A stretch of 64,000 nucleotides of DNA from Vandammella animalimorsus (GTDB taxonomy: Bacteria > Pseudomonadota > Gammaproteobacteria > Burkholderiales > Burkholderiaceae_C): the NCBI RefSeq assembly GCF_002285285.1, contig NZ_NSJF01000008.1:1-64000 (forward strand), in the 5' to 3' direction. Below the pieces are notes generated by a model. It made no database searches. It had not been told where the DNA came from and was given only the letters and a program-made list of their open reading frames with translations. A program made the position numbers and the translations under genes. Below are positions 3,301-15,757 of this stretch, piece by piece (positions within the stretch are counted from its first letter, which is position 1; the number at the start of each line of letters is the position of its first letter).

Positions 3301-3763
3301 GCCCGCGCCCGTGCAGGCCAGTCGCCTGCTCATCAGCATCAGCGGCGCCGAGGGCGGGCACATCGGCTGGCTGTGGGCTGGCCTGCCCCTGGCCACCGAC
3401 CACCACGCAAGCCAGTGCCAGCGCGTGCGGCGCTGGGCCGTGGGGCGCGGCAGCGGCATCAACCCGGCCAGCCTGTACGCGGGCGCGGGCGATGGCTGGC
3501 GCCTGGCCTGGTCGCCCAGCGACGCAGCCGCCTCGCGCCTGCTGCAGGCCGACCTGCAGCGGCTGCTGCCGCTGCTCGATTGGGCCCAGCAGCAGGATGA
3601 GCCGCTGATCCTGGTGCCGCACCACCGCCACCCGCAGGACGCCAGCCTGGTGCGCCTGGGCGCAGACGCCTTGGAGATCACCGACCAGCACGCCTGGCAG
3701 CCAGACGATGCGCAGCACCGGCTGCTCTCGGCCACGCTGGATTTGGAGCCGGTGTTCGCATGA
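323..3763 (+). CDS. Large phage tail-tip/hub structural protein (1146 aa)
   Basis: This is the largest gene of the phage segment. Its N-terminus (YLSGHNNAARSAAL) lacks a signal peptide. The body is rich in beta-type sequence, as expected for a virion structural protein. Two short collagen-like GTP/PGTPG stretches lie near residues 476-494 and 595-606 and flank a small inserted domain. The C-terminal third resembles proteins that place ligand-binding or baseplate domains at the tail tip. It lies directly after the tape measure and overlaps the next gene by four bases (ATGA at 3760-3763), the classical order tape measure, distal tail proteins, hub. I recognise the position and style rather than a named family. 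The precise role (distal tail, hub or baseplate component) is inferred. Confidence 0.6.
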   Translation: MPSVQRYLSGHNNAARSAALSASSVRASQAIERVRAQRTGGGRVRLSGAYSGHAAAQVEIELRAAGGVPRASQPQFAGVGNGQLSVLGVDAAAPLQALTLTLVDLGVPTEHAQLALREVQIRARAPGAAGNQIRITVQPQLHRAATDWALLADWPAGSALQQGAQWDWGGLPLSAQGQLDERSGRIQVGHDPQVYRPYRVYKDGAWQFGITPAPERPLPAGAPVWRVTGGYVVTVTDGQAVETYGDTAAGQAALVTLYELLSALAGSALVEVAGVVAAERALGGQAALDVPLRTQAWLHGLSGKVDLKDVSVPPAAPTQQLTVRCINADVVGRERWSVQGAVSGALPVAVTGQRYQSAAADFLIPATPPAAVGSGEVGFVYTPTGRSDDEGLPSVCLRPLRLGANARPLTVTFRYSKRPPAECSCSDMPAPRLSPACLGIGEDMDIEDVEFMSRIKAVYAWREAFIRGNTGVQLAGMTPGTPEIPGTPGTPPVTRWRFTVQYGGNVMQGGSTTWQSARAVSQQLYDDESEARTALDAAKNAGPLPAGTALGPITRGGVALDLQSISGGFSFSKVDGPLPVDIHASGAGSVVTGGTPGTPTIPAQPGKAVPLSYRAYVIDLDWMESAIPILVGCLSRVYDKPAARQAWDALWEEVKTDLGHLQAARNDLETAAHAHARYLDRYKSTVDNILLSVGILPKSEASSTDAGSCWTDHGGTHWWVDTEGNYLPAFTGHAYISAKRDADGKVYSTKEFGFGLLVACAERLKEGDQITVRIHSVDGHRPYQVGDEAVISTVAAGPAWLAGGVDGTDAQTWRVAGSVSGALPDYIVPTDGAAAPVYHQAGARLQMALGGIPFALGDTFSLAIEAGQWRWRRDAGAWSALADIPASGQAPLADGLQVHFDSGAAPSFADGDAYVFAVHQPWAVGHVRDAHESAWGWAGAAATLEIDLGAPTPVAALALARYHLPAGAQVRVAIDGAAPQLLDTSGPVAVLLLPAPVQASRLLISISGAEGGHIGWLWAGLPLATDHHASQCQRVRRWAVGRGSGINPASLYAGAGDGWRLAWSPSDAAASRLLQADLQRLLPLLDWAQQQDEPLILVPHHRHPQDASLVRLGADALEITDQHAWQPDDAQHRLLSATLDLEPVFA

Positions 3764-5382
3764 TCTGCTGGCTGGACGTGGACGGCGGCGCCGATGGGCA
3801 CCGCATCAGCCTGGTGCCGCCGCGCGGCGCGCCGGCCGGCGGCGCGCGCGTGCTGCCGCTGCTGGCGGGCATCTCGGCCATTGAGCGGCCGCTGTCCATC
3901 CCCGGCATCGCCGCAGCACCCACCAGCCACCTGGACGCGGCCCTGGCCAATGCCGGAGGCGCCATCACGCGGCTGTGGGGCCAGCGCCCGCCGCTGCGGC
4001 GCGCGGCGCGCATCATGGGCCGCGCCGGGCCCATCTGGCAGGGCGTGGTCACCGCGCTGGAGCTGGGCCAGCAGGCCCGCATCACGCTGGAGGCCGGGCT
4101 CGATCGGCCGCTGTCGGACAACCTGCCGCTGCGCACCAGCGCCGTCTGGGGCGGCTGGCGCGACGTGCGCGTGCTGCCCTGGGCCTGGGGCCGCGTCACG
4201 CTGGCACCTATCCAGTACAGCGACGACCAGCGCGTGTACCTGCTGGCCGACCACCCCATCGAGGGCGTGGACGAAGTCAAGCGCGACGACGTGGCCACCC
4301 AGGCATACGAATGGCGCAACGCGCTGGACAGCACCGGCCATGCCGTGGCCCTGCTGGAGCTGGCCGAGCCCCTGGCCGAGGGCGAGCGCCTGGCCGTGAC
4401 CCTGCGCGGGCGCATGCACCCGGAGACGGGCCGGCTGCTGCAAACCCCGGCCGAGATCGTGCACGACGTGCTGGCCCGCCTGGCCGGCGCGCCCGTGGCC
4501 TGGGCCGAGCTGGACGATTGGCGCGCGCAGACCAGCGATTGGAAGCTCGGCGGCGTGCTGGCCGACAACAGCATCACGGTGCGCGCCGCTGTGGATCAGA
4601 TCGTGCAAAGCGCCGGCGGCGCCTGGTCGCCGGCCATGCCCGGCATTGCCACCACCTGGCCGCCGCTGCCCGATGCGGCCGCGCCCGCGCACCCCGTAGG
4701 GGTGCGCAATGTGCGCGAGGTGCAGGCCAGCGCCGAGGCCGGCGGCATCGTCACCGTGCTGCGCGTGCTCTACGACTGGGACCATGCCGCCGGCCGCTAC
4801 CTGCGCGCCGTGCAGCTGCGCGCGCCCGACGCCGCCCGTGAGTTTGGCGAGCTGGAAATGGACTGGCCCGCCCCCTGGCTGCGCAGCCCGCGCCAGGCCC
4901 AAGCCCTGGGCGCGCGCATGCTCGCCTGGCTGGCCCGGCCGCGTTGGCGCGTGAGTTGGCAGCAGGACTTTGCGGACATCGCCACCGGCGCCTGGGTGGA
5001 CATCGATCACCCGCTCGCGCCCATCAGCGGCCGCCAGCGCCTGGTGCATGCGCAGCTGGATCTGCAGCAGGCCAGCCTGGCCTGCAGCGTCATCGCGCCC
5101 GTGGGCGATGCGCCTGAGATCGAGATCGTTCGGCTGTCCAGCGCCTTCGAGCCTGTGATTCAGCCAGGCATCACCGTGGAGGTGGCCGAGGGCGAGATCA
5201 TTTTTACGGCCCGCGATGAGCAGGGCCGCGTACTGGCCGGCGCGCGCATCACCCTCAACGGCCAGGCCACCAGGATTGCCGACAGCGCCGGGCGCGTTTC
5301 GTTCCCCGTGGCGCGTGGCCGGCACGCGCTGCTGATCGAGGCCGATGGCTACCCGGCCACCGAGGCCGTGGTCGTTGTGTGA
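3760..5382 (+). CDS. Phage tail protein with C-terminal carboxypeptidase-regulatory-like domain (540 aa)
   Basis: The gene overlaps its upstream neighbour by ATGA, so the two are probably translationally coupled. Residues 1 to about 460 form a tail-hub-like body with many aromatic and Gly residues (WRVSWQQDFADI near the end). The last 70 residues contain QGRVLAGARITLNG followed by a G-R-V-S-F-P strand and an EADGY turn. That is the signature of the small Ig-like carboxypeptidase-regulatory fold often used as a surface-binding or stabilising module in virions. No enzymatic motif is visible. A distal tail or adhesin-support role is inferred from position after the tape measure and from this terminal domain. 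Confidence 0.6.
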   Translation: MICWLDVDGGADGHRISLVPPRGAPAGGARVLPLLAGISAIERPLSIPGIAAAPTSHLDAALANAGGAITRLWGQRPPLRRAARIMGRAGPIWQGVVTALELGQQARITLEAGLDRPLSDNLPLRTSAVWGGWRDVRVLPWAWGRVTLAPIQYSDDQRVYLLADHPIEGVDEVKRDDVATQAYEWRNALDSTGHAVALLELAEPLAEGERLAVTLRGRMHPETGRLLQTPAEIVHDVLARLAGAPVAWAELDDWRAQTSDWKLGGVLADNSITVRAAVDQIVQSAGGAWSPAMPGIATTWPPLPDAAAPAHPVGVRNVREVQASAEAGGIVTVLRVLYDWDHAAGRYLRAVQLRAPDAAREFGELEMDWPAPWLRSPRQAQALGARMLAWLARPRWRVSWQQDFADIATGAWVDIDHPLAPISGRQRLVHAQLDLQQASLACSVIAPVGDAPEIEIVRLSSAFEPVIQPGITVEVAEGEIIFTARDEQGRVLAGARITLNGQATRIADSAGRVSFPVARGRHALLIEADGYPATEAVVVV

Positions 5383-6204: not shown

Positions 6205-6360
6205 ATGCAAAAGGAAAACACTCAACCCCTAGGAAAAAACGGCTTCAAGTACAAGCCACAGTTTGGCCTGATCATTGTTTGCAAGGATGAGGCCGAGCAG
6301 CAAAAACGCTATGCCGCGCTGGTGCGGCAGGGCTACAAGGTCAAGGTGGTGGCGGTATGA
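6205..6360 (+). CDS. Small phage protein of unknown function (51 aa)
   Basis: The short protein has a basic N-terminus and a compact beta-alpha-beta pattern: FKYKPQFGLIIVCKDEAEQ, a helix, then GYKVKVVAV. The first strand (GLIIVCKDE) and the final strand resemble half of a small alpha/beta fold. The start at 6205 is preferred because AAAAAGGA lies about 11 bases upstream. An alternative start at 6043 would give 105 residues and overlap the previous stop, but that region looks like structured RNA. The stop overlaps the start of the ATPase/acetyltransferase gene (ATGA, 6357-6360), so translation is probably coupled. The gene is not recognised. Its place ahead of a possible modification enzyme recalls the small Com regulator before Mu mom, but no zinc-finger cysteines are present. 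Confidence 0.6.
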   Translation: MQKENTQPLGKNGFKYKPQFGLIIVCKDEAEQQKRYAALVRQGYKVKVVAV

Positions 6361-7466
6361 AAGTGCATATCGACCACTCCTGTGAGGACTTCAACAGCTA
6401 CCGCGCTGCGCGAGTCAAGTCGCTGTTCAACGTGGACAGCGGGGCCAGTTTCACCCTGTCGGCGGATTTGCCCCTGGGTGAGCGCCCGTGGCAGATCGGC
6501 CTGATCGTGGGGCCCAGCGGCAGCGGCAAGACCAGCATCGGCCGCGCCGTCTGGGGCGATGGCGCGCTGTACGCCCCCAGTTGGCCGCAGGATGCGCCCG
6601 TGATCGATGCCATTACACCGGGCGGTTCCTTCGACGCGGTCACCGCCGCACTCTCCAGCGTGGGCCTGGGCAGTGTGCCCGCGTGGCTGCGGCCGTGGCC
6701 GGTGCTCTCCAATGGCGAGCAGTTCCGTGCCAACCTGGCCCGCCTGATTGCCGAGGCGCCCCCGCGCGCAGTGCTCGACGAGTTCAGCAGCGTGGTGGAT
6801 CGGCATATCGCCCAGATTGGCGCGGGCGCCTTCGGCAAAGCATGGCGCCGCACGGCAGGACAATGCATTTTGCTCAGTTGCCACTACGACATCATCGATT
6901 GGCTGCAACCAGACTGGGTGTTTGATACCGGCTGCGGGCAATGGCAATGGAGGCGCCTTCGGCGCCGACCAAACATTGCCCTCGATATCTGGCAAACCGA
7001 CTGGCGCCATTGGCCTGCATTTGAGCCGCACCACTATCTGAAGCTGCCGCACATGATTGCCGCGACCAATTACGTGGCTACTGTGGACGGCCAAATGGTT
7101 GCCCATGTGGCCGTGAGTACCCGCAGCAGGCATGAGGCCAGGGCCTGCCGCCTGGTTGTCATGCCCGAGTGGCAAGGCGCTGGCGTCGGGCTGTGTTTTC
7201 TCAATGCGGTGTGCGAGATGTGGCGCCAGGGGCAAAACCGCTACGGCAGGCCCATGCCAACGCTGTTTCACACCAGCCACCCGGGGCTGGCCGCCGCGCT
7301 GCGCCGCTCCCCCTTGTGGACGCAGGTCTCGGCCTCTCTGTGCGGGCAAAACAAAGCCCGCTCCGCACAAAGCATGCGCCGTAGCGGGCGCAATGGGGCG
7401 GGCTACGGCGGGCACTTCCGGGCCGTACAAGGGTTCAGGTATCTGGGCCAGGAGGGTGCGCCATGA
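6357..7466 (+). CDS. ABC-type ATPase fused to a GNAT acetyltransferase-like domain (369 aa)
   Basis: The N-terminal half is an ABC ATPase: Walker A GPSGSGKTS (52-60), an ABC signature LSNGEQFRA (117-125) and Walker B RAVLDEF (137-143). A His follows at HYD (176-178). The C-terminal half is GNAT-like, with a motif A RLVVMPEWQGAGVG (265-278) that supplies the acyl-CoA pyrophosphate loop, and conserved HHY (225-227) and HTSHP (305-309) segments. There is no membrane segment, so it is not a transporter. It overlaps the genes on both sides by four bases, which suggests a coupled three-gene unit at the end of the phage late operon. Phage Mu carries mom, a GNAT-fold DNA-modification enzyme, in the equivalent place. 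An ATP-dependent base or macromolecule modification role is inferred, not shown. Confidence 0.75.
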   Translation: MKVHIDHSCEDFNSYRAARVKSLFNVDSGASFTLSADLPLGERPWQIGLIVGPSGSGKTSIGRAVWGDGALYAPSWPQDAPVIDAITPGGSFDAVTAALSSVGLGSVPAWLRPWPVLSNGEQFRANLARLIAEAPPRAVLDEFSSVVDRHIAQIGAGAFGKAWRRTAGQCILLSCHYDIIDWLQPDWVFDTGCGQWQWRRLRRRPNIALDIWQTDWRHWPAFEPHHYLKLPHMIAATNYVATVDGQMVAHVAVSTRSRHEARACRLVVMPEWQGAGVGLCFLNAVCEMWRQGQNRYGRPMPTLFHTSHPGLAAALRRSPLWTQVSASLCGQNKARSAQSMRRSGRNGAGYGGHFRAVQGFRYLGQEGAP

Positions 7467-8062
7467 GGGTATTGCTCATAGGCCAGAAGTGGCTCGCAGC
7501 CCAAGTACTGGGGCTATGCCAGCAGCGCGGCGACGACGTGGCGGCCGTCATTACGACCAGCGCGGAAGACCGCTTGGCCATTGCGGCACGCCGTGATGGC
7601 ATCCCGGCGCACATAACGGCACGGATTGAGCCGCAGCATGTGCCCGCTGGTTTGGATGTGATCGTGTGCGCGCATGCCCATGTGTTTGTCCCGGCGTTTG
7701 CCAGGCAGGCCCCTCGCCTGGGCGCGCTGGGCTATCACCCGAGTCTGTTGCCCCGCCACCGTGGGCGTGATGCGATTCGCTGGGCCATCCACATGCGTGA
7801 GGTCGTCACAGGAGGCACGGTCTACTGGCTCGATGACGGCGCCGACACTGGCCCCATTGCCGCCCAGGATTGGTGCTGGGTCACGCCAGGGGATACAGAG
7901 CAATCGCTCTGGAGGGACAAGCTGGCGCCCATGGGTTTGCGCCTGATCGGGCAGGTTCTGGCGCAGCTCGATCAAGGCATCTGCCCCAGGGTTGACCAAC
8001 CGCCGGAGATGGCCACATGGGAGCCTGCGTTCGACCGCCCCCGGCTAGGCGGGGACCCATAA
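7463..8062 (+). CDS. Formyltransferase-fold protein with altered catalytic motif (199 aa)
   Basis: The fold is that of the formyltransferase family (GART, methionyl-tRNA formyltransferase, sugar N-formyltransferases). It starts with a Rossmann-like MRVLLIGQKW and has the formyl-donor loop HPSLLPRHRG (92-101) and the Asp loop DDGADTG (124-130). In characterised members the catalytic triad is Asn-x-His...Asp. Here His92 and Asp128 are present, but the Asn position two residues before the His is Gly90. At 199 residues it has the catalytic core only, with no tRNA-binding C-terminal domain, so it is not a housekeeping Fmt. It overlaps the ATPase-GNAT gene by ATGA. It could modify a base or other phage target, or bind a formyl-folate-like ligand. 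Substrate unknown. Confidence 0.75.
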   Translation: MRVLLIGQKWLAAQVLGLCQQRGDDVAAVITTSAEDRLAIAARRDGIPAHITARIEPQHVPAGLDVIVCAHAHVFVPAFARQAPRLGALGYHPSLLPRHRGRDAIRWAIHMREVVTGGTVYWLDDGADTGPIAAQDWCWVTPGDTEQSLWRDKLAPMGLRLIGQVLAQLDQGICPRVDQPPEMATWEPAFDRPRLGGDP

Positions 8063-8066
8063 ACGG

Positions 8067-8100
8067 CAACGTCGGCATAAACGCCGACGTTGTGTTGTTT
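8067..8100 (+). terminator. Terminator at the right end of the phage late operon
   Basis: CAACGTCGGC (8067-8076) and GCCGACGTTG (8083-8092) form a perfect 10-bp stem with a six-base loop, followed by TGTTGTTT. It lies five bases after the last phage gene and probably ends late transcription before the chromosomal junction. Confidence 0.7.
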
Positions 8101-8158: not shown

Positions 8159-8828
8159 AAGCAGCCGGCATTTATCGCGCGCCGCTTCAGCCACCTGCGC
8201 CCGCACTCGCACGAGGAAGGGCTGCTGTTCATGCTCACCGGCGGGCTGATCCACGTCGAAACCGAGCGTCAGGCCTGGTGCGCCAGCCCCGGCCACCTGG
8301 GCTGGATCGCCCCCGGCGTGCCGCACCGCGCGCAGTGGCACGGCGTGGCAGGCGGCATCTTTTTGTACCTGCACCCGCGCCACTGCGCCCCCTTGCCCGC
8401 CGAAGGCGCCACCGTGCGGCTGACGCCACTGGCCGAGGCGCTGATGCGCCGCCTTGCCCGGCCTGCCGCTGCCGCGCTCGGCCGCTTTGCAGGCATTGGC
8501 GCAGGCCTTTCTGGCCGCGCCCGACAGCGCGGACGATCTGCCGCAATGGGCGCGCCGCGCCCGGATGTCGGCCAGCACCTTGCAGCGCCGCTTCAAGGCC
8601 GAAACGGGCCTGAGCCCCAGCCACTGGCGCCAGCGCGCCCGCCTGATGCGCGCGCAGGAGCTGCTGGCCGGCGGCGCCAGCGTCACGGCGGCGGCCATGC
8701 ACGTGGGCTACGGCAACGTCAGCGCCTTCATCGAAGCCTTCGCCCGCCACTTCGGCGCCACGCCCGGCCAGTACCTGCAAGCCGATGCAACGCCCGCACG
8801 GTCTGCCGAAACAGGCCCTCAGCCGTAG
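8159..8828 (+). pseudogene. AraC-family regulator remnant, 5'-truncated and frameshifted
   Basis: From about 8159 one frame encodes an AraC-type cupin sensor: FIARRFSHLRPHSHEEG, LTGGLIHVET, then WIAPGVPH. After RRLA at about 8455 the homology moves to another frame, which encodes LPQWARRARMSASTLQRRF and the second helix-turn-helix VTAAAMHVGYGNVSAFIEAFARHFG, ending at 8828. Moving between the frames requires one surplus base near 8450-8460. No start codon precedes the cupin domain, because a stop at 8105-8107 and phage-type sequence interrupt it. The gene is therefore broken twice. The likeliest cause of the 5' loss is phage insertion. The 3' end overlaps the convergent lyase gene by 10 bases. 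Confidence 0.75.
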
Positions 8829-9694
8829 CGCTGCTCCAGCGCGTCCCAGGCCGGTTTGCCGACCAGGCGCTGGCGTTCGGCGAAGGGGGCGACCAGGCCG
8901 CTGGATTCGAGCAGCTGCTTGTCGCGGCGCAGCGCGCCCAGGGCGTTTTGCATGCCAGTGAGCGCGCCTTGCAGCGCGGCGTTGGCGTAGAGCACGATGC
9001 CGTAGCCCAGCGCGGCCAGCTCGTCGGCGCCGACGATGGGGGTTTTGCCGCCGATGACCATGTTCATCAGCTGCGGCACGGGCAGCAGGCCGGGCAGGGC
9101 GCGGATGTGCTCGGCGCTGGTGACGGCTTCGACGAACAGCAGGTCGGCCCCGGCTTCGGCAAAGCGCTGGGCGCGTTCGACGGCTGCCTCGAAGCCGTGC
9201 ACGGCGGCGGCGTCGGTGCGGGCCATGATGAGCAGGTCGGCGTCGCGCCGGGCATCGGCGGCGGCCTTGATCTTGCCCACGGCCTCCTCGGTGCTGATGA
9301 CCTGCTTGCCGCTGAAGTGGCCGCAGCGCTTGGGCGCGAGCTGGTCTTCGAGCTGGATGCAGTCGGCCCCGGCGCGCTCGAGCGTGCGCACGCTGTGATA
9401 GACGTTGAGGGCGTTGCCAAAGCCGGTGTCGGCATCGACGATCAGCGGCAGGGCCACGGCGTCGCGGATGCGGGCGGTGTGCTCGGCGATTTCGTGCAGG
9501 CCCATGAAGCCCTGGTCGGGCAGGCCCAGCCACATGTTGGTCACGCCCGCGCCGGTGACGTAAATGGCTTCGAAACCCAGGTCTTCGACGACCTTGGCCG
9601 ACAGGGCGTTGAAGGCGCCGGGCACGAGGGCGCCGCGGCGGGCCTGGATGAGGGCGCGCAGTTGCTGGCGCGGGGTGGCTGGGCTGGTGGACAT
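8819..9694 (-). CDS. Isocitrate lyase/PEP mutase superfamily lyase, PrpB-like (291 aa)
   Basis: This cytosolic TIM-barrel lyase has the superfamily Mg-binding VDADTGFG (87-94), LEDQ (115-118) and the lyase loop KRCGH (122-126) that carries the catalytic Cys. KRCGH indicates C-C bond cleavage (2-methylisocitrate or 2,3-dimethylmalate lyase types) rather than a phosphonomutase. Sequence after the loop (FSGKQVI) differs from the RPNK/RPGK typical of enterobacterial PrpB, so this may be a separate subfamily. It is last in the leftward cluster after prpC, acnD and prpF. Cleavage of 2-methylisocitrate to pyruvate and succinate is the natural expectation, but a related substrate such as dimethylmalate is possible. 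Confidence 0.75.
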   Translation of the reverse strand: MSTSPATPRQQLRALIQARRGALVPGAFNALSAKVVEDLGFEAIYVTGAGVTNMWLGLPDQGFMGLHEIAEHTARIRDAVALPLIVDADTGFGNALNVYHSVRTLERAGADCIQLEDQLAPKRCGHFSGKQVISTEEAVGKIKAAADARRDADLLIMARTDAAAVHGFEAAVERAQRFAEAGADLLFVEAVTSAEHIRALPGLLPVPQLMNMVIGGKTPIVGADELAALGYGIVLYANAALQGALTGMQNALGALRRDKQLLESSGLVAPFAERQRLVGKPAWDALEQRYG

Positions 9695-9785
9695 GGCTGA
9701 GGTTCCTTGGCAAAAGGGCGTGCGCGCTGGCGCACGAGATCAGGGGGAAAGAGGTTTGGCGCGAACAGGCGCGAAAGGCCGGGGT

Positions 9786-10991
9786 TCAGCGCAGCGTGTC
9801 GGCGGGCACATGCACCCAGCCGCTCATCAGCACCCGGGCGCTGCGGCTCATCACGGCTTTTTTCACCGTCCATGGGCCGCTGGCGTTTTCCACTGCCGCG
9901 CCCACGCGCAAGCTGCCGGAGGGGTGGCCAAAGCACACGCTCTCGCGCGGTTCGCCGCCAGCGGCGCGGTTCACCAGCGTGCCGGGCACGGCGGCGGCGG
10001 CGGCGATGGCGACCGAGGCCGTGCCCATCATGGCGTGGTGCAGCTTGCCCATGGACAGCGCCCGCACCCGTAGGTCGATGTCGGCAGCATGAATGGTCTT
10101 GCCGCTGGAGGCGGTGTAGTCCGCGGGCGGGGCGACAAAGGCCACCTTGGGCGTGTGCTGGCGCTGGGCGGCTTCTTCCGGGCGTTGGATCAGGCCCATG
10201 CGCAGCGCGCCGGCGGTGCGGATGGCCTCGAACATGGCCAGCTTTTGCGCATCGGCGTTGATGTCCTTTTGCAGCTCGCTGCCGGTCAGGCCAATGTCGG
10301 CGGCGTTGACGAACACGGTGGGGATGCCCGCGCTGATGAGCGTGGCTGCCAGTTGGCCGATGCCGGGCACATCCAGGGTATCGACGACGTTGCCGGTGGG
10401 GAACATCGCCCCGCCGCCCTCGCCCTCGCCCTCGCCCTCGTCGGACGGGTCGATGAATTCCAGCACGATTTCCGCCGCCGGAAAGGCCACGCCATCGAGC
10501 ATGAAATCACCGCCCTCCACCACCTGCCCGCCCTGCACCGGCACGCGGGCGAGGATGGTCTTGCCGATGTTGGCCTGCCAGATGCGCACTTCCACCAGGC
10601 CGTTCTGCAGTCGCTCGGGCGGGATGAAACCATTGGCAATGGCGAACGGTCCGACGGCGCTGGAGAGGTTGCCGCAGTTGCCGCTCCAATCGACCAGGGC
10701 CTCGCCAATGGCGACCTGGCCGTAGAGGTAGTCCACGTCGTGGCCGGGCCGGTTTGACGGCGAGATGATGACGCACTTGCTGGTGCTGGAGCTGGCCCCG
10801 CCCATGCCGTCGATGTGCTGGGCATAGGGGTCGGGCGAGCCGATCACGCGCATCAGCAGCGCATCGCGCGCCGCGCCGGGCTGCTGCGCCTGGGGCGGCA
10901 AATCCGCAAGACGAAAAAACACGCCCTTGCTGGTGCCGCCGCGCATGTAGGTGGCAGGGATGCGGAGTGCGGGCCTTGGGTGCATGGGCAA
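9786..10991 (-). CDS. prpF: PrpF-family aconitate/methylaconitate isomerase (401 aa)
   Basis: PrpF proteins have two diaminopimelate-epimerase-like domains and isomerise trans-2-methylaconitate to the cis form, so that aconitase can hydrate it. The sequence shows the family opening IPATYMRGGTSKGVFF (11-26), QHIDGMGGASSSTSK and GNCGNLSSAVGPFA. Length is normal for the family. acnD lies upstream in the same cluster, and AcnD and PrpF work as a pair in the PrpD-independent methylcitrate cycle. Inside the gene a (CGCCCT)4 repeat at 10415-10438 encodes an EGEGEG loop. A 91-base gap separates it from the lyase gene. Related PrpF-fold enzymes act on oxalomesaconate or methylitaconate, but context favours methylaconitate. 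Confidence 0.88.
   Translation of the reverse strand: MPMHPRPALRIPATYMRGGTSKGVFFRLADLPPQAQQPGAARDALLMRVIGSPDPYAQHIDGMGGASSSTSKCVIISPSNRPGHDVDYLYGQVAIGEALVDWSGNCGNLSSAVGPFAIANGFIPPERLQNGLVEVRIWQANIGKTILARVPVQGGQVVEGGDFMLDGVAFPAAEIVLEFIDPSDEGEGEGEGGGAMFPTGNVVDTLDVPGIGQLAATLISAGIPTVFVNAADIGLTGSELQKDINADAQKLAMFEAIRTAGALRMGLIQRPEEAAQRQHTPKVAFVAPPADYTASSGKTIHAADIDLRVRALSMGKLHHAMMGTASVAIAAAAAVPGTLVNRAAGGEPRESVCFGHPSGSLRVGAAVENASGPWTVKKAVMSRSARVLMSGWVHVPADTLR
10415..10438. repeat. Tandem hexanucleotide (CGCCCT)4 inside prpF
   Basis: Four perfect head-to-tail copies of CGCCCT encode alternating Glu-Gly on the minus strand. Copy-number change would keep the reading frame and alter the length of a surface loop. 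Confidence 0.9.
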
Positions 10992-11041
10992 ATCCTTGTG
11001 GGCAAGAGGGCAGAGCGAACAACGAATGGGGGCAATGAAAG

Positions 11042-12079
11042 TCAGTCATCCACGCCAGGGCGCAGCGGCGGCAGGGTCACGCTGCCGTCGGCGTTGCGGA
11101 TATTGCGCAGCAGGCGCTCATCGCTGGCCTGGCCGCTGTGGCTGTCGTATTGCAGCGCCAGGGCCATGTCCTCGTGGCAATTGCTGCGGCGCTGGGCCAC
11201 AGCCTGGGGCGAGCAGAGCAAGATCTGGGCGTGCAAGCGGCCGATGTCCGCAGGGTCGGGCGCCATTCGCCAGACCACCGGGGAGATGGCGTTCAGGGCC
11301 GCCCCCCGCAGATGCGTCTCCAGATAGCGCTGCGTGTGCGCCAGGATCGCGGCCTGCAGCTGCTTGTAGTAATCCGTGTAGGGGATCACGCGCAGCCGGG
11401 ATGGATCGGGCGGCAGCGGGGTATCGGGCCTGAGCCAGATGGAATACAGCGGCGCATCCGGGCGGCTGGGCGCCCGGGTTTCCCAGTCCAGGCGCTCGGG
11501 CATTGCAGCCGGGTTGGCCCCCGACTGGCGCAGGTACAGCTCCCAGTGCGGCCGCCCCCAGTCCTTGCTCGCAGACGTCTGGCCCCAGGCCTGCCAGTAC
11601 GCCTGGGCACAAGCGCCCACACGGGCCAGCGCGGCGCGGGTATCGCCTTGGATGTCCAGCTCCACCAGCGGCGCGGGGCCGCTGCCGCCAGAGACCATGC
11701 CCAGCATCGGCAGCCCGCAGCCACGCAAGGCGGCCACGCTGGTGTTGAAGATGGTGGCGTTGTAATGGCCGCTGTCGTAGGCGTGCTGCAGGATCTGGCG
11801 GCAGCGCTGCGGTTCGCAGATGCTCAGGTCGCGGTGGCTCAGCTTGACGCGGAAGTTGGCGTCATCGCGCGCGGCCAGGATGATTTCATAGCCCTGCAAA
11901 TCCCCGCGCCGGCCGGCCTTGTACAGCTGGAACTGGCCTGGCCAGGTGGCCTCGGCCAGGGCCAGTGTCTGCCGCGTGGCCTCATCCAGCGCGCGCGGGT
12001 TGTGGCAGGCCGCCAGCGGCAGGCAGGCCAGCAGGCCCGCCAGGCTGCGCAGTCGTGCAGCGCGCTGGCGGCGCATCAT
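11042..12079 (-). CDS. Putative lipoprotein of unknown function (345 aa)
   Basis: The start at 12079 overlaps the stop of the upstream receptor gene (AAATGATG). The N-terminus is a classical lipoprotein signal: basic MMRRQRAARLR, a hydrophobic stretch, and lipobox LAAC. The mature protein would be anchored in the envelope. The remainder is soluble and Cys-containing (CEPQRC, GACAQAYWQAW), with no recognised domain. It is transcribed with the Bug receptor and prpF, so it may assist substrate capture or envelope adaptation, but nothing in the sequence shows a biochemical role. A lipoprotein between tctC-like and prpF genes is not a standard part of methylcitrate clusters and may be an insertion into the operon. 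Confidence 0.7.
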   Translation of the reverse strand: MMRRQRAARLRSLAGLLACLPLAACHNPRALDEATRQTLALAEATWPGQFQLYKAGRRGDLQGYEIILAARDDANFRVKLSHRDLSICEPQRCRQILQHAYDSGHYNATIFNTSVAALRGCGLPMLGMVSGGSGPAPLVELDIQGDTRAALARVGACAQAYWQAWGQTSASKDWGRPHWELYLRQSGANPAAMPERLDWETRAPSRPDAPLYSIWLRPDTPLPPDPSRLRVIPYTDYYKQLQAAILAHTQRYLETHLRGAALNAISPVVWRMAPDPADIGRLHAQILLCSPQAVAQRRSNCHEDMALALQYDSHSGQASDERLLRNIRNADGSVTLPPLRPGVDD

Positions 12080-13074
12080 TTCGCTTCCAGCTTGGCGGCC
12101 GAGATGGTCTGGGCCCATTTGGCGGTTTCGCTCTCGATGAGGCGGGCGAAGTCCTCGGGCGAGCCGCCGCCGACCTGGCCGGCCGTTTCCTCGAACGCGG
12201 CGATCACATCGGGCTGCTGCAGCACGCGGTTGGCCGCGGCATTGATCTTGTCCACGATGTCGCGCGGCACGCCCGCCGGGGCGATGAGGCCCTGCCAATT
12301 GGTGGACTCAAAGTCCGTCAGGCCCGATTCGGCCAGCGTGGGCACCTCGGGCAGCAGCGGCAAGCGCTGGGCGCTGGTGACGGCCAGCGGTCGCACCTTG
12401 CCGGATTTGATGGCTGGCATGGCTGCATAGCCCATCTCGAACATCATCGGGATGTGCCCGGCCATCAAATCGGCCGCGGCCGGCGCGCCACCTTTGTAGG
12501 GCACGTGCGAGAGCTTGATGCCCGCTTGGTGGGCAAACAGCTCGCCCGAGAGGTGGTGCGCCCCGCCCATGCCGGAGGAGCCGAAGCTGATGCCGCCCGG
12601 GTCTTTCTTGGCCAGCGCAATCAGCTCCTGCACCGTCTGGGCGGGCACGCCCTGGTGGACGTTGAGGACCAGCGGCGCCTGCTCAATCAGCACGATGGGC
12701 GTCAGCTCGGTCTTGACCTGATAGGGCACGGTCTTGGGCGTCAGCGTGGGGTTGACTGCCAGTGGCGCCAGGTGGCCACTGCCAATGGTGTAGCCATCGG
12801 GCTTGGCCTTGGCGATTTGCGCCGTGCCGATGACGCCGCCTGCACCAGCTTTGTTCTCAATGACGATGGTTGCGCCCAGCTCCTTCTCCAGCTTGCTGGC
12901 AATCAGGCGCATGCGCGTGTCGGCAAAGCCGCCTGCGGCATAGGGCACGATGAAGGTGATGGGCTTGGCAGGCCAAGCCTGCTCTGCCTGGGCGGCGGCG
13001 GAAAACGCCGTCGCCCCGGCCAGGGCCCAGGTGCACAGCGCGGCCAAGCGCAAGGAAAAGCGTCGCATGTTCAT
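12076..13074 (-). CDS. Bug-family (TctC-like) periplasmic solute receptor (332 aa)
   Basis: The start MNMRRFSL at 13074 yields a clean signal peptide (hydrophobic core then AAQAEQ). The mature protein opens with WPAKPITFIVPYAAGGFADTRMR, the canonical Bug-family motif. It goes on with GAGGVIGTAQIAKAKPDGYT, FGSSGMGGAHHLSGELF and VPYKGGAPA. Bug receptors bind carboxylates such as citrate in the periplasm and can serve TctAB transporters or act as sensors. No tctA or tctB lies nearby, so it is an orphan receptor, which is common in Burkholderiales. Its place between acnD and prpF suggests a tri- or dicarboxylate ligand related to the methylcitrate pathway. Confidence 0.88.
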   Translation of the reverse strand: MNMRRFSLRLAALCTWALAGATAFSAAAQAEQAWPAKPITFIVPYAAGGFADTRMRLIASKLEKELGATIVIENKAGAGGVIGTAQIAKAKPDGYTIGSGHLAPLAVNPTLTPKTVPYQVKTELTPIVLIEQAPLVLNVHQGVPAQTVQELIALAKKDPGGISFGSSGMGGAHHLSGELFAHQAGIKLSHVPYKGGAPAAADLMAGHIPMMFEMGYAAMPAIKSGKVRPLAVTSAQRLPLLPEVPTLAESGLTDFESTNWQGLIAPAGVPRDIVDKINAAANRVLQQPDVIAAFEETAGQVGGGSPEDFARLIESETAKWAQTISAAKLEAK

Positions 13075-13108
13075 GACTCCAGATGAGATGGTTGTGGCAA
13101 AGCGCGTG

Positions 13109-15757
<2,649 letters not shown>

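Follow-up and report, generated by a model that had tools for sequence, protein, structure and literature searches.

Coupling of a GNAT domain to an ATP-binding cassette (ABC) ATPase has been predicted to acylate a DNA nucleobase (Iyer et al. 2013, NAR 41:7635, as cited in PMC7824862; PMC papers are cited throughout for excerpts). In the predicted systems the GNAT is joined to the ABC ATPase or encoded beside it (PMC7824862), and Tenacibaculum phage pT24 is a named example. Here we describe a relative encoded in the first 64,000 nucleotides of contig NZ_NSJF01000008.1 of Vandammella animalimorsus (hereafter, the window). The gene of a 369-residue ABC ATPase-GNAT fusion protein (ABC-GNAT) lies between the genes of a 51-residue protein and of a 199-residue formyltransferase-fold protein (FT). 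The trio is a real, conserved and widespread cassette whose linkage is far beyond chance, and it is most likely a phage DNA-modification cassette that would place a small group, possibly formyl, on the phage's own DNA against host cutting.

Two other systems bear on the trio. In phage Mu, com and mom are the last genes of the phage, and a small gene overlaps a GNAT-fold gene, as in the window. Mom's published catalytic residues include a His-Tyr pair. Mom is classed as a GNAT (PMC7824862), and Com is a zinc-finger protein (PMC6483171). The other system is FDH (ALDH1L1), whose hydrolase domain hydrolyses 10-formyl-tetrahydrofolate (10-formyl-THF; PMC4388273) and which moves formyl onto the thiol of a 4'-phosphopantetheine arm (PMC8748788). 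HypX, with an FDH-like domain, has been proposed to formylate coenzyme A (CoA), direct experiments being lacking according to its authors (PMC6802093).

Because PMC7824862 relays the prediction of 2013, DNA acylation by ABC-GNAT is an earlier idea. What appears to be new here is the association with FT and with the domain that we call the tail, the FDH type of FT, and the link to ParB-like proteins. The excerpt of PMC7824862 on the prediction mentions neither a formyltransferase nor a tail protein, and the original 2013 paper may mention them. Our literature search, which covered few subscription papers and had the 2013 paper outside its reach, found no description of either association. Among the listed phage records, the names given to ABC-GNAT relatives are often those of hypothetical or transporter proteins, and the near-constant folate partner in one clade allows a definite guess at the chemistry.

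Organization and conservation of the trio

The features of the trio are as follows.

6205-6360, + strand: gene of the 51-residue protein (open reading frame, ORF), which corresponds to the C-terminal tail domain of ParB-like proteins as a separate polypeptide
6357-6360, + strand: ATGA stop/start overlap of the 51-residue gene with the ABC-GNAT gene (sequence), suggesting translational coupling
6357-7466, + strand: gene of ABC-GNAT, 369 residues (ORF; PHROGs, Pfam, AlphaFold2)
6357-6959, + strand: ABC ATPase domain, residues about 1-201 (invariant motifs; Foldseek)
6963-7463, + strand: GNAT domain, residues 203-369, with acyl-CoA motif QGAGVG at 273-278 (AlphaFold2, Foldseek, alignment)
7029-7037, + strand: HHY, residues 225-227, the catalytic pair candidate of the initial annotation (79-row alignment)
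7463-7466, + strand: ATGA stop/start overlap of the ABC-GNAT gene with the FT gene (sequence)
7463-8062, + strand: gene of FT, 199 residues, a formyltransferase-fold protein of the 10-formyl-THF hydrolase type (ORF; Formyl_trans_N, PDB matches)
7736-7738, + strand: codon of FT H92, catalytic His by alignment to FDH His106 (H in 128/128 rows)
7844-7846, + strand: codon of FT D128, catalytic Asp by alignment to FDH Asp142 (D in 128/128 rows)

The three proteins match the PHROGs families phrog_28816 (51-residue protein, 7.5e-23), phrog_11143 (ABC-GNAT, 4.3e-149) and phrog_9240 (FT, 5.7e-61), of which the first two are of unknown function. The initial annotation, made from the sequence alone, had placed the three ORFs and both four-base overlaps correctly. 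It had also named rare co-occurrence of the genes as an outcome against its reading; their co-occurrence is strong.

ABC-GNAT matches occur in 51 of 50,697 phage records, and scans confirm relatives in at least 586 viral-contig stretches and 416 bacterial or archaeal genome-contig stretches. The best 80 of each (160 scanned loci, a choice that leans to close relatives and high FT frequency), the window's copy and 8 phage records make up a first set of 169 loci; a 170th is the Mu control. The tail domain lies upstream of ABC-GNAT in 155/169 loci. FT lies within 1.5 kb downstream (span -300 to +1500 bases from the ABC-GNAT end) in 130/169, while 9 loci end too soon to tell and 30 are without FT. 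Viewed from FT, 77 of 80 loci have ABC-GNAT within 1.5 kb upstream, 74 of them also the tail, and the other 3 start at a contig edge; these 80 are the best of 338 matches, the other 258 being weaker, and their contigs are partly those of the 169-locus set. Four-base overlaps recur as well, between tail and ABC-GNAT genes in 122/146 loci measured and, as a possibility, between ABC-GNAT and FT genes in 60/125, a count in which the start codon nearest to four-base spacing was picked, favouring overlap.

A set of 88 loci chosen to be distant (9 from phage records, 79 from viral contigs, the latter from the best 80 of at least 597) gives a different picture: FT in 0/88, the tail in 75/88 and a ParB core in 69/88. 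The 79 viral contigs lean away from FT, and short ends are not set aside in this FT count. Some contigs are in both sets; L180, for example, is phage Jace again. Each of the three profiles (tail, ParB, FT) necessarily matches the proteins from which it was built, 6 for ParB and 4 for FT. ParB counts are lower bounds.

A FastTree phylogeny of 137 sequences requires 8 changes of the FT label when rows at contig edges are set aside; with edge rows as their own group, the FT group needs 12 changes, as compared with 42.4 for shuffles. The ParB-fused versus stand-alone state of the tail needs 12 changes. The inner branches are poorly supported in 48/134 cases. Of the 80 genome loci, 59 belong to Pseudomonadota, 7 to Planctomycetota and 5 to Bacteroidota; another 7 are spread over five further phyla, and 2 have no assigned phylum. 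Large phages of the T4 type, PX29 and VmeM-32 among them, have the trio as well. Among isolated phages, Komp_PAO1_1 and NHagos, for example, encode the complete set; in NHagos the tail is part of a ParB fusion.

The ABC ATPase-GNAT fusion protein

Pfam matches ABC_tran (1.6e-5) and Acetyltransf_1 (4.4e-4) just above their cut-offs and Acetyltransf_7 (3.1e-5) just below. The AlphaFold2 model of the full protein has a mean predicted local distance difference test (pLDDT) score of 90.3, and that of the GNAT part alone 88.2. The ABC domain carries Walker A GPSGSGKT, signature LSNGE, Walker B with DE141-142, and H-loop H176. Residues G52, S54, G55, G57, K58, L117, S118, G120, D141, E142 and H176 are invariant in 79 aligned sequences, hand-picked from the loci. 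In the same alignment, the GNAT motif is conserved at Q273 and G274 (79/79), G276 (78/79) and G278 (77/79).

Foldseek matches the whole model to ABC nucleotide-binding domains and the GNAT part best to Ard1 (E 1.4e-5) and RimI (E 2.3e-5). The fusion and the GNAT fold of the C-terminal domain, both proposed at the outset, therefore stand on Pfam matches, kept motifs, the AlphaFold2 model and Foldseek. The kept ABC motifs, the coupled GNAT and homology to phage pT24 (35.3% over 74% of the window protein) place the protein in the ABC-GNAT family with predicted DNA modification. Phage pT24 differs in that its ABC and GNAT genes are separate and that the surrounding 10.8 kb contains no FT match.

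Against viral models, the top two Foldseek matches are GNAT proteins of Leptospira phage LE4 and Enterococcus phage 9184, both from ABC-GNAT loci; the latter is annotated as a DNA polymerase. The ABC part of family members is called an iron-siderophore, oligopeptide, unspecified ABC or hemin transporter in Streptococcus, Lactococcus and Vibrio phages (L006, L007, L009, L175). The GNAT model also matches BFVD A0A8S5PZ92 (rank 39, E 1.5e-3), a phage protein of 214 residues under the name aspartate 1-decarboxylase that may be a fusion or a GNAT resembling PanZ.

The third protein is of the 10-formyl-THF hydrolase type

Pfam assigns Formyl_trans_N to FT (1.5e-22), and at 199 residues the protein is without a C-terminal tRNA-binding domain. 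The initial annotation had recognized this much; the closest kin is the FDH hydrolase domain, not Fmt or PurN. Among PDB sequences, FT matches the FDH/ALDH1L1 hydrolase domain at 5.8e-28, the best Fmt at 1.9e-14 and the best PurN at 1.6e-9. The match to FDH spans residues 1-188, with the shared motif YHPSLLPRHRG.

All 128 FT rows (127 loci, with the window's copy twice; ORFs under 140 residues dropped) keep the FDH-site residues His, Ser and Asp. The position of the transferase Asn is G in 105 rows, A in 8, I in 7, S in 4 and V in 4, and N in 0/128. Fmt, ArnA and GART depend critically on this Asn, and substitution of Ile104 of FDH by Asn leaves <10% hydrolase activity (PMC4388273). FDH likewise has no transferase Asn. 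By best match, the His-Ser-Asp set and the missing Asn, FT falls within the FDH/ALDH1L1 hydrolase type. It differs from FDH in standing alone, with no carrier or dehydrogenase domain, and in having usually Gly rather than Ile at position 90.

Identity with Fmt was rejected, FT having no tRNA-binding domain, no Asn and an NCBIfam fmt score of 57.6 bits (cut-off 201.5); identity with PurN was rejected at 45.8 bits (cut-off 150.1). PHROGs names the FT family cyanobacterial phosphoribosylglycinamide formyltransferase, and some Gordonia FT homologues are annotated as tRNA-methyltransferase.

FT is of a type that hands formyl to a pantetheine thiol, and GNATs use acyl-CoA; formyl-CoA is therefore the simplest link between the two proteins. 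From these sequence relationships, we give an even chance to FT making formyl-CoA as the donor of the GNAT. The N-terminal domain of HypX, which shares its superfamily with FT, has been proposed to move formyl from 10-formyl-THF onto CoA and would be a precedent (PMC6802093). It differs in being fused to an enoyl-CoA hydratase-like domain, and formyl-CoA is a proposal there too. There is no HypX among the 52 PDB sequences that match FT at E 1e-3.

The 51-residue protein as a detached tail of ParB-like proteins

In Gordonia phage NHagos, the gene ahead of ABC-GNAT encodes a 210-residue ParB-like protein (gp1). A tblastn search with the 51 residues alone finds the C-terminus of NHagos gp1 at 45.5% (E 2e-4), among 19 of 50,697 phage records matched overall. 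Nine such partners were aligned, 3 of them stand-alone (the window's and two relatives) and 6 ParB-like, NHagos gp1 included; tail similarity is weak in the most distant. The tail profile also finds EastWest gp74 (1e-9) and Pmp13 gp47 (1.3e-12), both outside its building set. A ParB core has no match in the 64-kb window at E up to 1, the remainder of the prophage lying outside the window.

Since the tail matches the C-termini of ParB-like proteins and the window has no ParB core, the 51-residue protein is, by sequence comparison, the detached C-terminal domain of such proteins. It presumably serves as an adaptor that docks on ABC-GNAT. The initial annotation overlooked this ParB link, as well as the hydrolase type of FT. 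A homologue of the 51-residue protein in Porphyromonas phage007a (L003:4876-5004) is annotated "acr candidate"; it is more likely an ABC-GNAT tail protein.

ParB cores beside DNA-modifying enzymes

The gene order in NHagos is gp1 ParB, gp2 ABC-GNAT, gp3 FT and gp4 terminase. Mycobacteriophage Zemanar has a parallel order of gp1 ParB, gp2, gp3 and terminase, and its ParB, which is without the tail, is 61% identical to that of NHagos over 136 residues. In place of ABC-GNAT and FT, Zemanar gp2 matches Tet_JBP-like below the cut-off (5.5e-6) and gp3 matches ADDT (amino acid:DNA transferase) above it. The annotation of gp2 as queuine tRNA-ribosyltransferase (TRTase) looks wrong, and gp2 and gp3 look like a base-hypermodification set (L377:785-2823).

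Antuna and Appa, two Microbacterium phages, have identical ParB proteins, and in both the ParB core lies directly ahead of a Mom-family enzyme (Antuna gp49 by Pfam, 1.2e-46; Appa by annotation). Six ParB-core neighbourhoods were considered among the 60 records listed of 342 matched. Because Appa and Zemanar were picked as telling, the four others are read as a control. According to the annotations as deposited, in Martha a small gene separates ParB from a Mom-like gene; in Typha ParB and a small gene are followed by queuine-type TRTase, QueD, QueE and GTP cyclohydrolase; Arthrobacter phage Edmundo has ParB, PAPS reductase, a second ParB, a methyltransferase and terminase; mycobacteriophage ChaChing has ParB, two small genes, a PAPS reductase-like gene, a second ParB and terminase. 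Among the 60 ParB-core matches listed, 9 are proteins whose own annotation is that of a methylase or methyltransferase, either of DNA or unspecified. ParBc proteins are also found on contigs of phage CmoX cytosine-modifying enzymes (PMC12783734).

Four of these proteins (Zemanar gp1, Appa gp46, Martha gp69 and Typha gp1) match the ParB-core hidden Markov model at E 1e-28 to 1e-33 in a set of 9 proteins, and none of the four matches the tail profile better than E 1. Which C-terminus is present depends on the partner: next to ABC-GNAT it is the tail, next to Mom (Appa, Martha) it contains CxxC, and in Zemanar and Typha the tail is missing. Their core is common with the tail-bearing ParB partners of ABC-GNAT, whereas the window has the tail without the core. 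Since the core adjoins Mom, Tet/JBP and ADDT, queuine-type and methyltransferase genes, the natural reading of these sequences is that it would serve DNA-modifying enzymes, perhaps as a subunit of general use in the hypermodification of phage DNA.

Of 99 loci flagged as distant, 47 have a homologue of the terminase large subunit (cluster 2) no more than 4.5 kb away; PX29, VmeM-32 and Jace have none directly behind.

Three further observations concern ParB-like genes. Cores with a CxxC-containing end stand beside a Mom-family or so annotated enzyme in Microbacterium and Arthrobacter phages (L369:3469-4621, L376:1501-2653, L380:2977-4345). In Edmundo and ChaChing (L378:2971-5783, L381:1-2717), two ParB-like genes flank the PAPS reductase gene just before terminase. 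At the end of the first ParB of each pair is a DDExQQ stretch with a faint resemblance to the tail.

Relatives without FT

PanD (aspartate decarboxylase) adjoins ABC-GNAT on six distinct contigs among 127 FT-less loci (Jace = L005/L180; L082 = L181; L189; L191; L193; L228). A short CoA-transferase III protein is encoded on five of the six (all except L193), after ABC-GNAT, or before it in L082. A search of phage records with the Jace decarboxylase gives 15 matches, two of them Jace itself; one is Achromobacter phage 2-1, with an annotated panD, and most others were judged bacterial contamination by record titles. The Jace CoA-transferase finds Jace only. As sequences, PanD and CoA-transferase III are compatible with acyl-CoA supply.

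PanZ/PanM is a GNAT-type activator of PanD. Activation of this type was considered for PanD beside ABC-GNAT and thought unlikely, the GNAT being part of the ABC fusion family.

A fixed ABC-GNAT with a tail adaptor may form a modular platform for phage DNA acylation with exchangeable acyl-CoA suppliers, a formyl-CoA maker in one clade and PanD with CoA-transferase III in the other; we regard this generalization as doubtful. If true, the FT clade would make formylated DNA, a modification assembled from one-carbon units of folate by way of a CoA thioester, and the PanD clade DNA with a beta-alanine-type acyl group.

Comparison with Mom

The GNAT part of the window protein has a GNAT-type fold by Foldseek, as Mom does, and the HHY noted by the initial annotation is indeed at residues 225-227. 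Y227 is conserved in 79/79 sequences and H225 in 77/79, while position 226 is occupied by His in 58 sequences and by Tyr in the other 21. In an alignment of seven Mom members, H58-Y59 is invariant. Two hhalign comparisons place HHY on the Mom HY, with a probability of 0.2% (E 0.25) in one and 4.9% (P 0.0082) in the other. In this last, low-probability alignment, the His-Tyr stands at a similar place ahead of the second strand. Comparison with a single Mom sequence gave no HHY/HY match. Pfam Mom (PF25680), a model present in the library searched, is not listed for the 369-residue protein at E up to 1, and the solved Mom structure 8bv8 is not among the 50 Foldseek matches listed for the GNAT domain. 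Strict membership in Mom was rejected in view of the missing Pfam match and the weak profile match.

The two systems also differ in their partners. Mom is without an ABC domain, and no FT partner is annotated in the Mu stretch examined. Com is a zinc-finger protein (PMC6483171), whereas the 51-residue protein has one Cys and matches the ParB tail domain, so that identity with Com was rejected. The trio has the GNAT fold and the small overlapping gene in common with com-mom, and has neither a Pfam Mom match nor the Com zinc finger; the reading of HHY as a Mom-like pair is suggestive, and the equivalence with Mom is weakly supported. The link to Mom is best taken as an analogy.

Proposed function

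Starting from the gene order, the linkage, the kept ATPase and acyl-CoA motifs, the hydrolase-type active site and the kinship of the tail with ParB-like proteins, all directly seen, we infer the following course. The ABC domain, presumably an ATP-driven dimer on DNA, would present a base to the GNAT domain, which would transfer an acyl group to it from a CoA thioester. The 51-residue protein would dock on ABC-GNAT to regulate or target it; its counterparts in many other phages are fused to a ParB-like core. FT would move formyl from 10-formyl-THF to a pantetheine thiol, most simply that of CoA, and the GNAT would use the formyl-CoA, with an N-formyl group as the primary product. The cassette would be expressed late, and the modified, packaged genome would resist host restriction. 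Phage eta was rejected as a precedent for the chemistry, its DNA being without a modified base.

The steps differ in strength. DNA is the probable target, and the ParB-core context makes it the best reading of the ATP-dependent acyl or formyl modification first proposed. Formyl-CoA as donor and DNA as target, taken together, come to slightly under an even chance. The complete account, a late DNA-modification cassette with a formyl-CoA-fed ABC-GNAT and restriction evasion, is our best explanation and a tentative one, a little more likely to fail somewhere than to hold throughout.

Several observations weigh against it. An N-formyl group on an exocyclic amine is expected to be labile. FDH hydrolase domains can merely release formate, and the nearest solved GNAT folds, Ard1 and RimI, are protein acetyltransferases. 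FT is absent from 30/160 assessable loci of the first set and from 88/88 distant loci, so ABC-GNAT needs no FT. Conversely, weaker FT-fold genes without an ABC-GNAT partner occur in phages, for example in Prochlorococcus P-SSM7 (24%). A ParB core is undetected in 85/125 loci with tail and FT, where DNA targeting thus rests on ABC-GNAT alone. ChaChing gp1, at a locus with a PAPS reductase-like gene, has a short and weak tail match (E 0.0014 over 16 residues), so that the tail may not be private to partners of ABC-GNAT. The CoA_transf_3 proteins of the PanD contigs are short and match part of the profile only.

Among the alternatives, a two-step DNA modification fares best, though we consider it unlikely. 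ABC-GNAT would draw on host CoA thioesters to add an acyl group, ordinary or amine-bearing, and FT would then formylate this group or a precursor of it. The DNA context, from NHagos to the ParB-core neighbourhoods, serves this scheme equally; the FT fold lies within the wider superfamily of amine formyltransferases, where PurN, Fmt and ArnA formylate amines; and a tailoring step would be absent from distant relatives, as FT is. What speaks against the scheme is the Asn used by those enzymes, found in none of the 128 FT rows, together with best FT matches to hydrolase domains and an FT family that tracks one ABC-GNAT clade.

The Ard1 and RimI matches fit a GNAT that, like RimI, TmcA-type enzymes or phage Rac, modifies RNA or protein (tRNA, ribosome, host RNA polymerase or a virion protein), and phage GNATs that modify host RNA polymerase are known (PMC7824862). 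Such a target is less probable again, in view of a ParB core common to the loci of DNA methylases (9/60 listed), Mom, Tet/JBP with ADDT, and queuine-type genes, and of the terminase homologue within 4.5 kb in 47/99 distant loci, which suits packaged DNA.

A superinfection-exclusion or defence module of the prophage, in which the ABC ATPase would do the sensing and the GNAT would be the effector, is improbable. The trio appears to be the last prophage operon, a frequent site of lysogenic conversion genes, and PADLOC weakly matches the ABC signature region to mad3 (1.1e-7). No PADLOC family, however, covers the trio proteins beyond the generic ABC motif, and identity with a known defence system was rejected on this ground; moreover, the large T4-type phages PX29 and VmeM-32 have the trio, and a folate enzyme has no obvious role in such a module.

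Least probable of all is an auxiliary 10-formyl-THF hydrolase that replenishes THF for nucleotide synthesis and is merely co-located with ABC-GNAT: the activity of the FDH domain (PMC4388273) and the PHROGs name of the family would suit it, whereas ABC-GNAT is upstream, with partly overlapping genes, in 77/77 assessable of the 80 closest FT loci, and a metabolic gene would be expected to roam alone too (the 258 weaker of the 338 FT matches being outside this count).

Genomic context

Two features flank the trio.

3760-5382, + strand: upstream phage tail-tip gene (similarity to cyanophage tip proteins)
8066-8093, + strand: terminator-like hairpin at the end of the operon (a stem of 11 pairs followed by a T-rich tail)

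The product of the upstream gene shares about 33% identity with tip protein J / tail tip protein L of cyanophages (2 phage records), which supports the position after tail-tip genes first assigned to the trio. Terminator-like sites number 4 in the region, with 1.9 expected. The trio closes the phage region, which lies at the contig start; the window begins at a contig end, and the remainder of the prophage is outside view.

A Mu-like prophage in this genome is not proven, the single Mu Gam match being sub-threshold and on another contig (G000:C2:29108-29536, L375); it may mark another transposable phage. Past the prophage, the reverse strand at 8819-15757 encodes lyase, PrpF-like and aconitase-like proteins, which we take to be a methylcitrate (prp) cluster.

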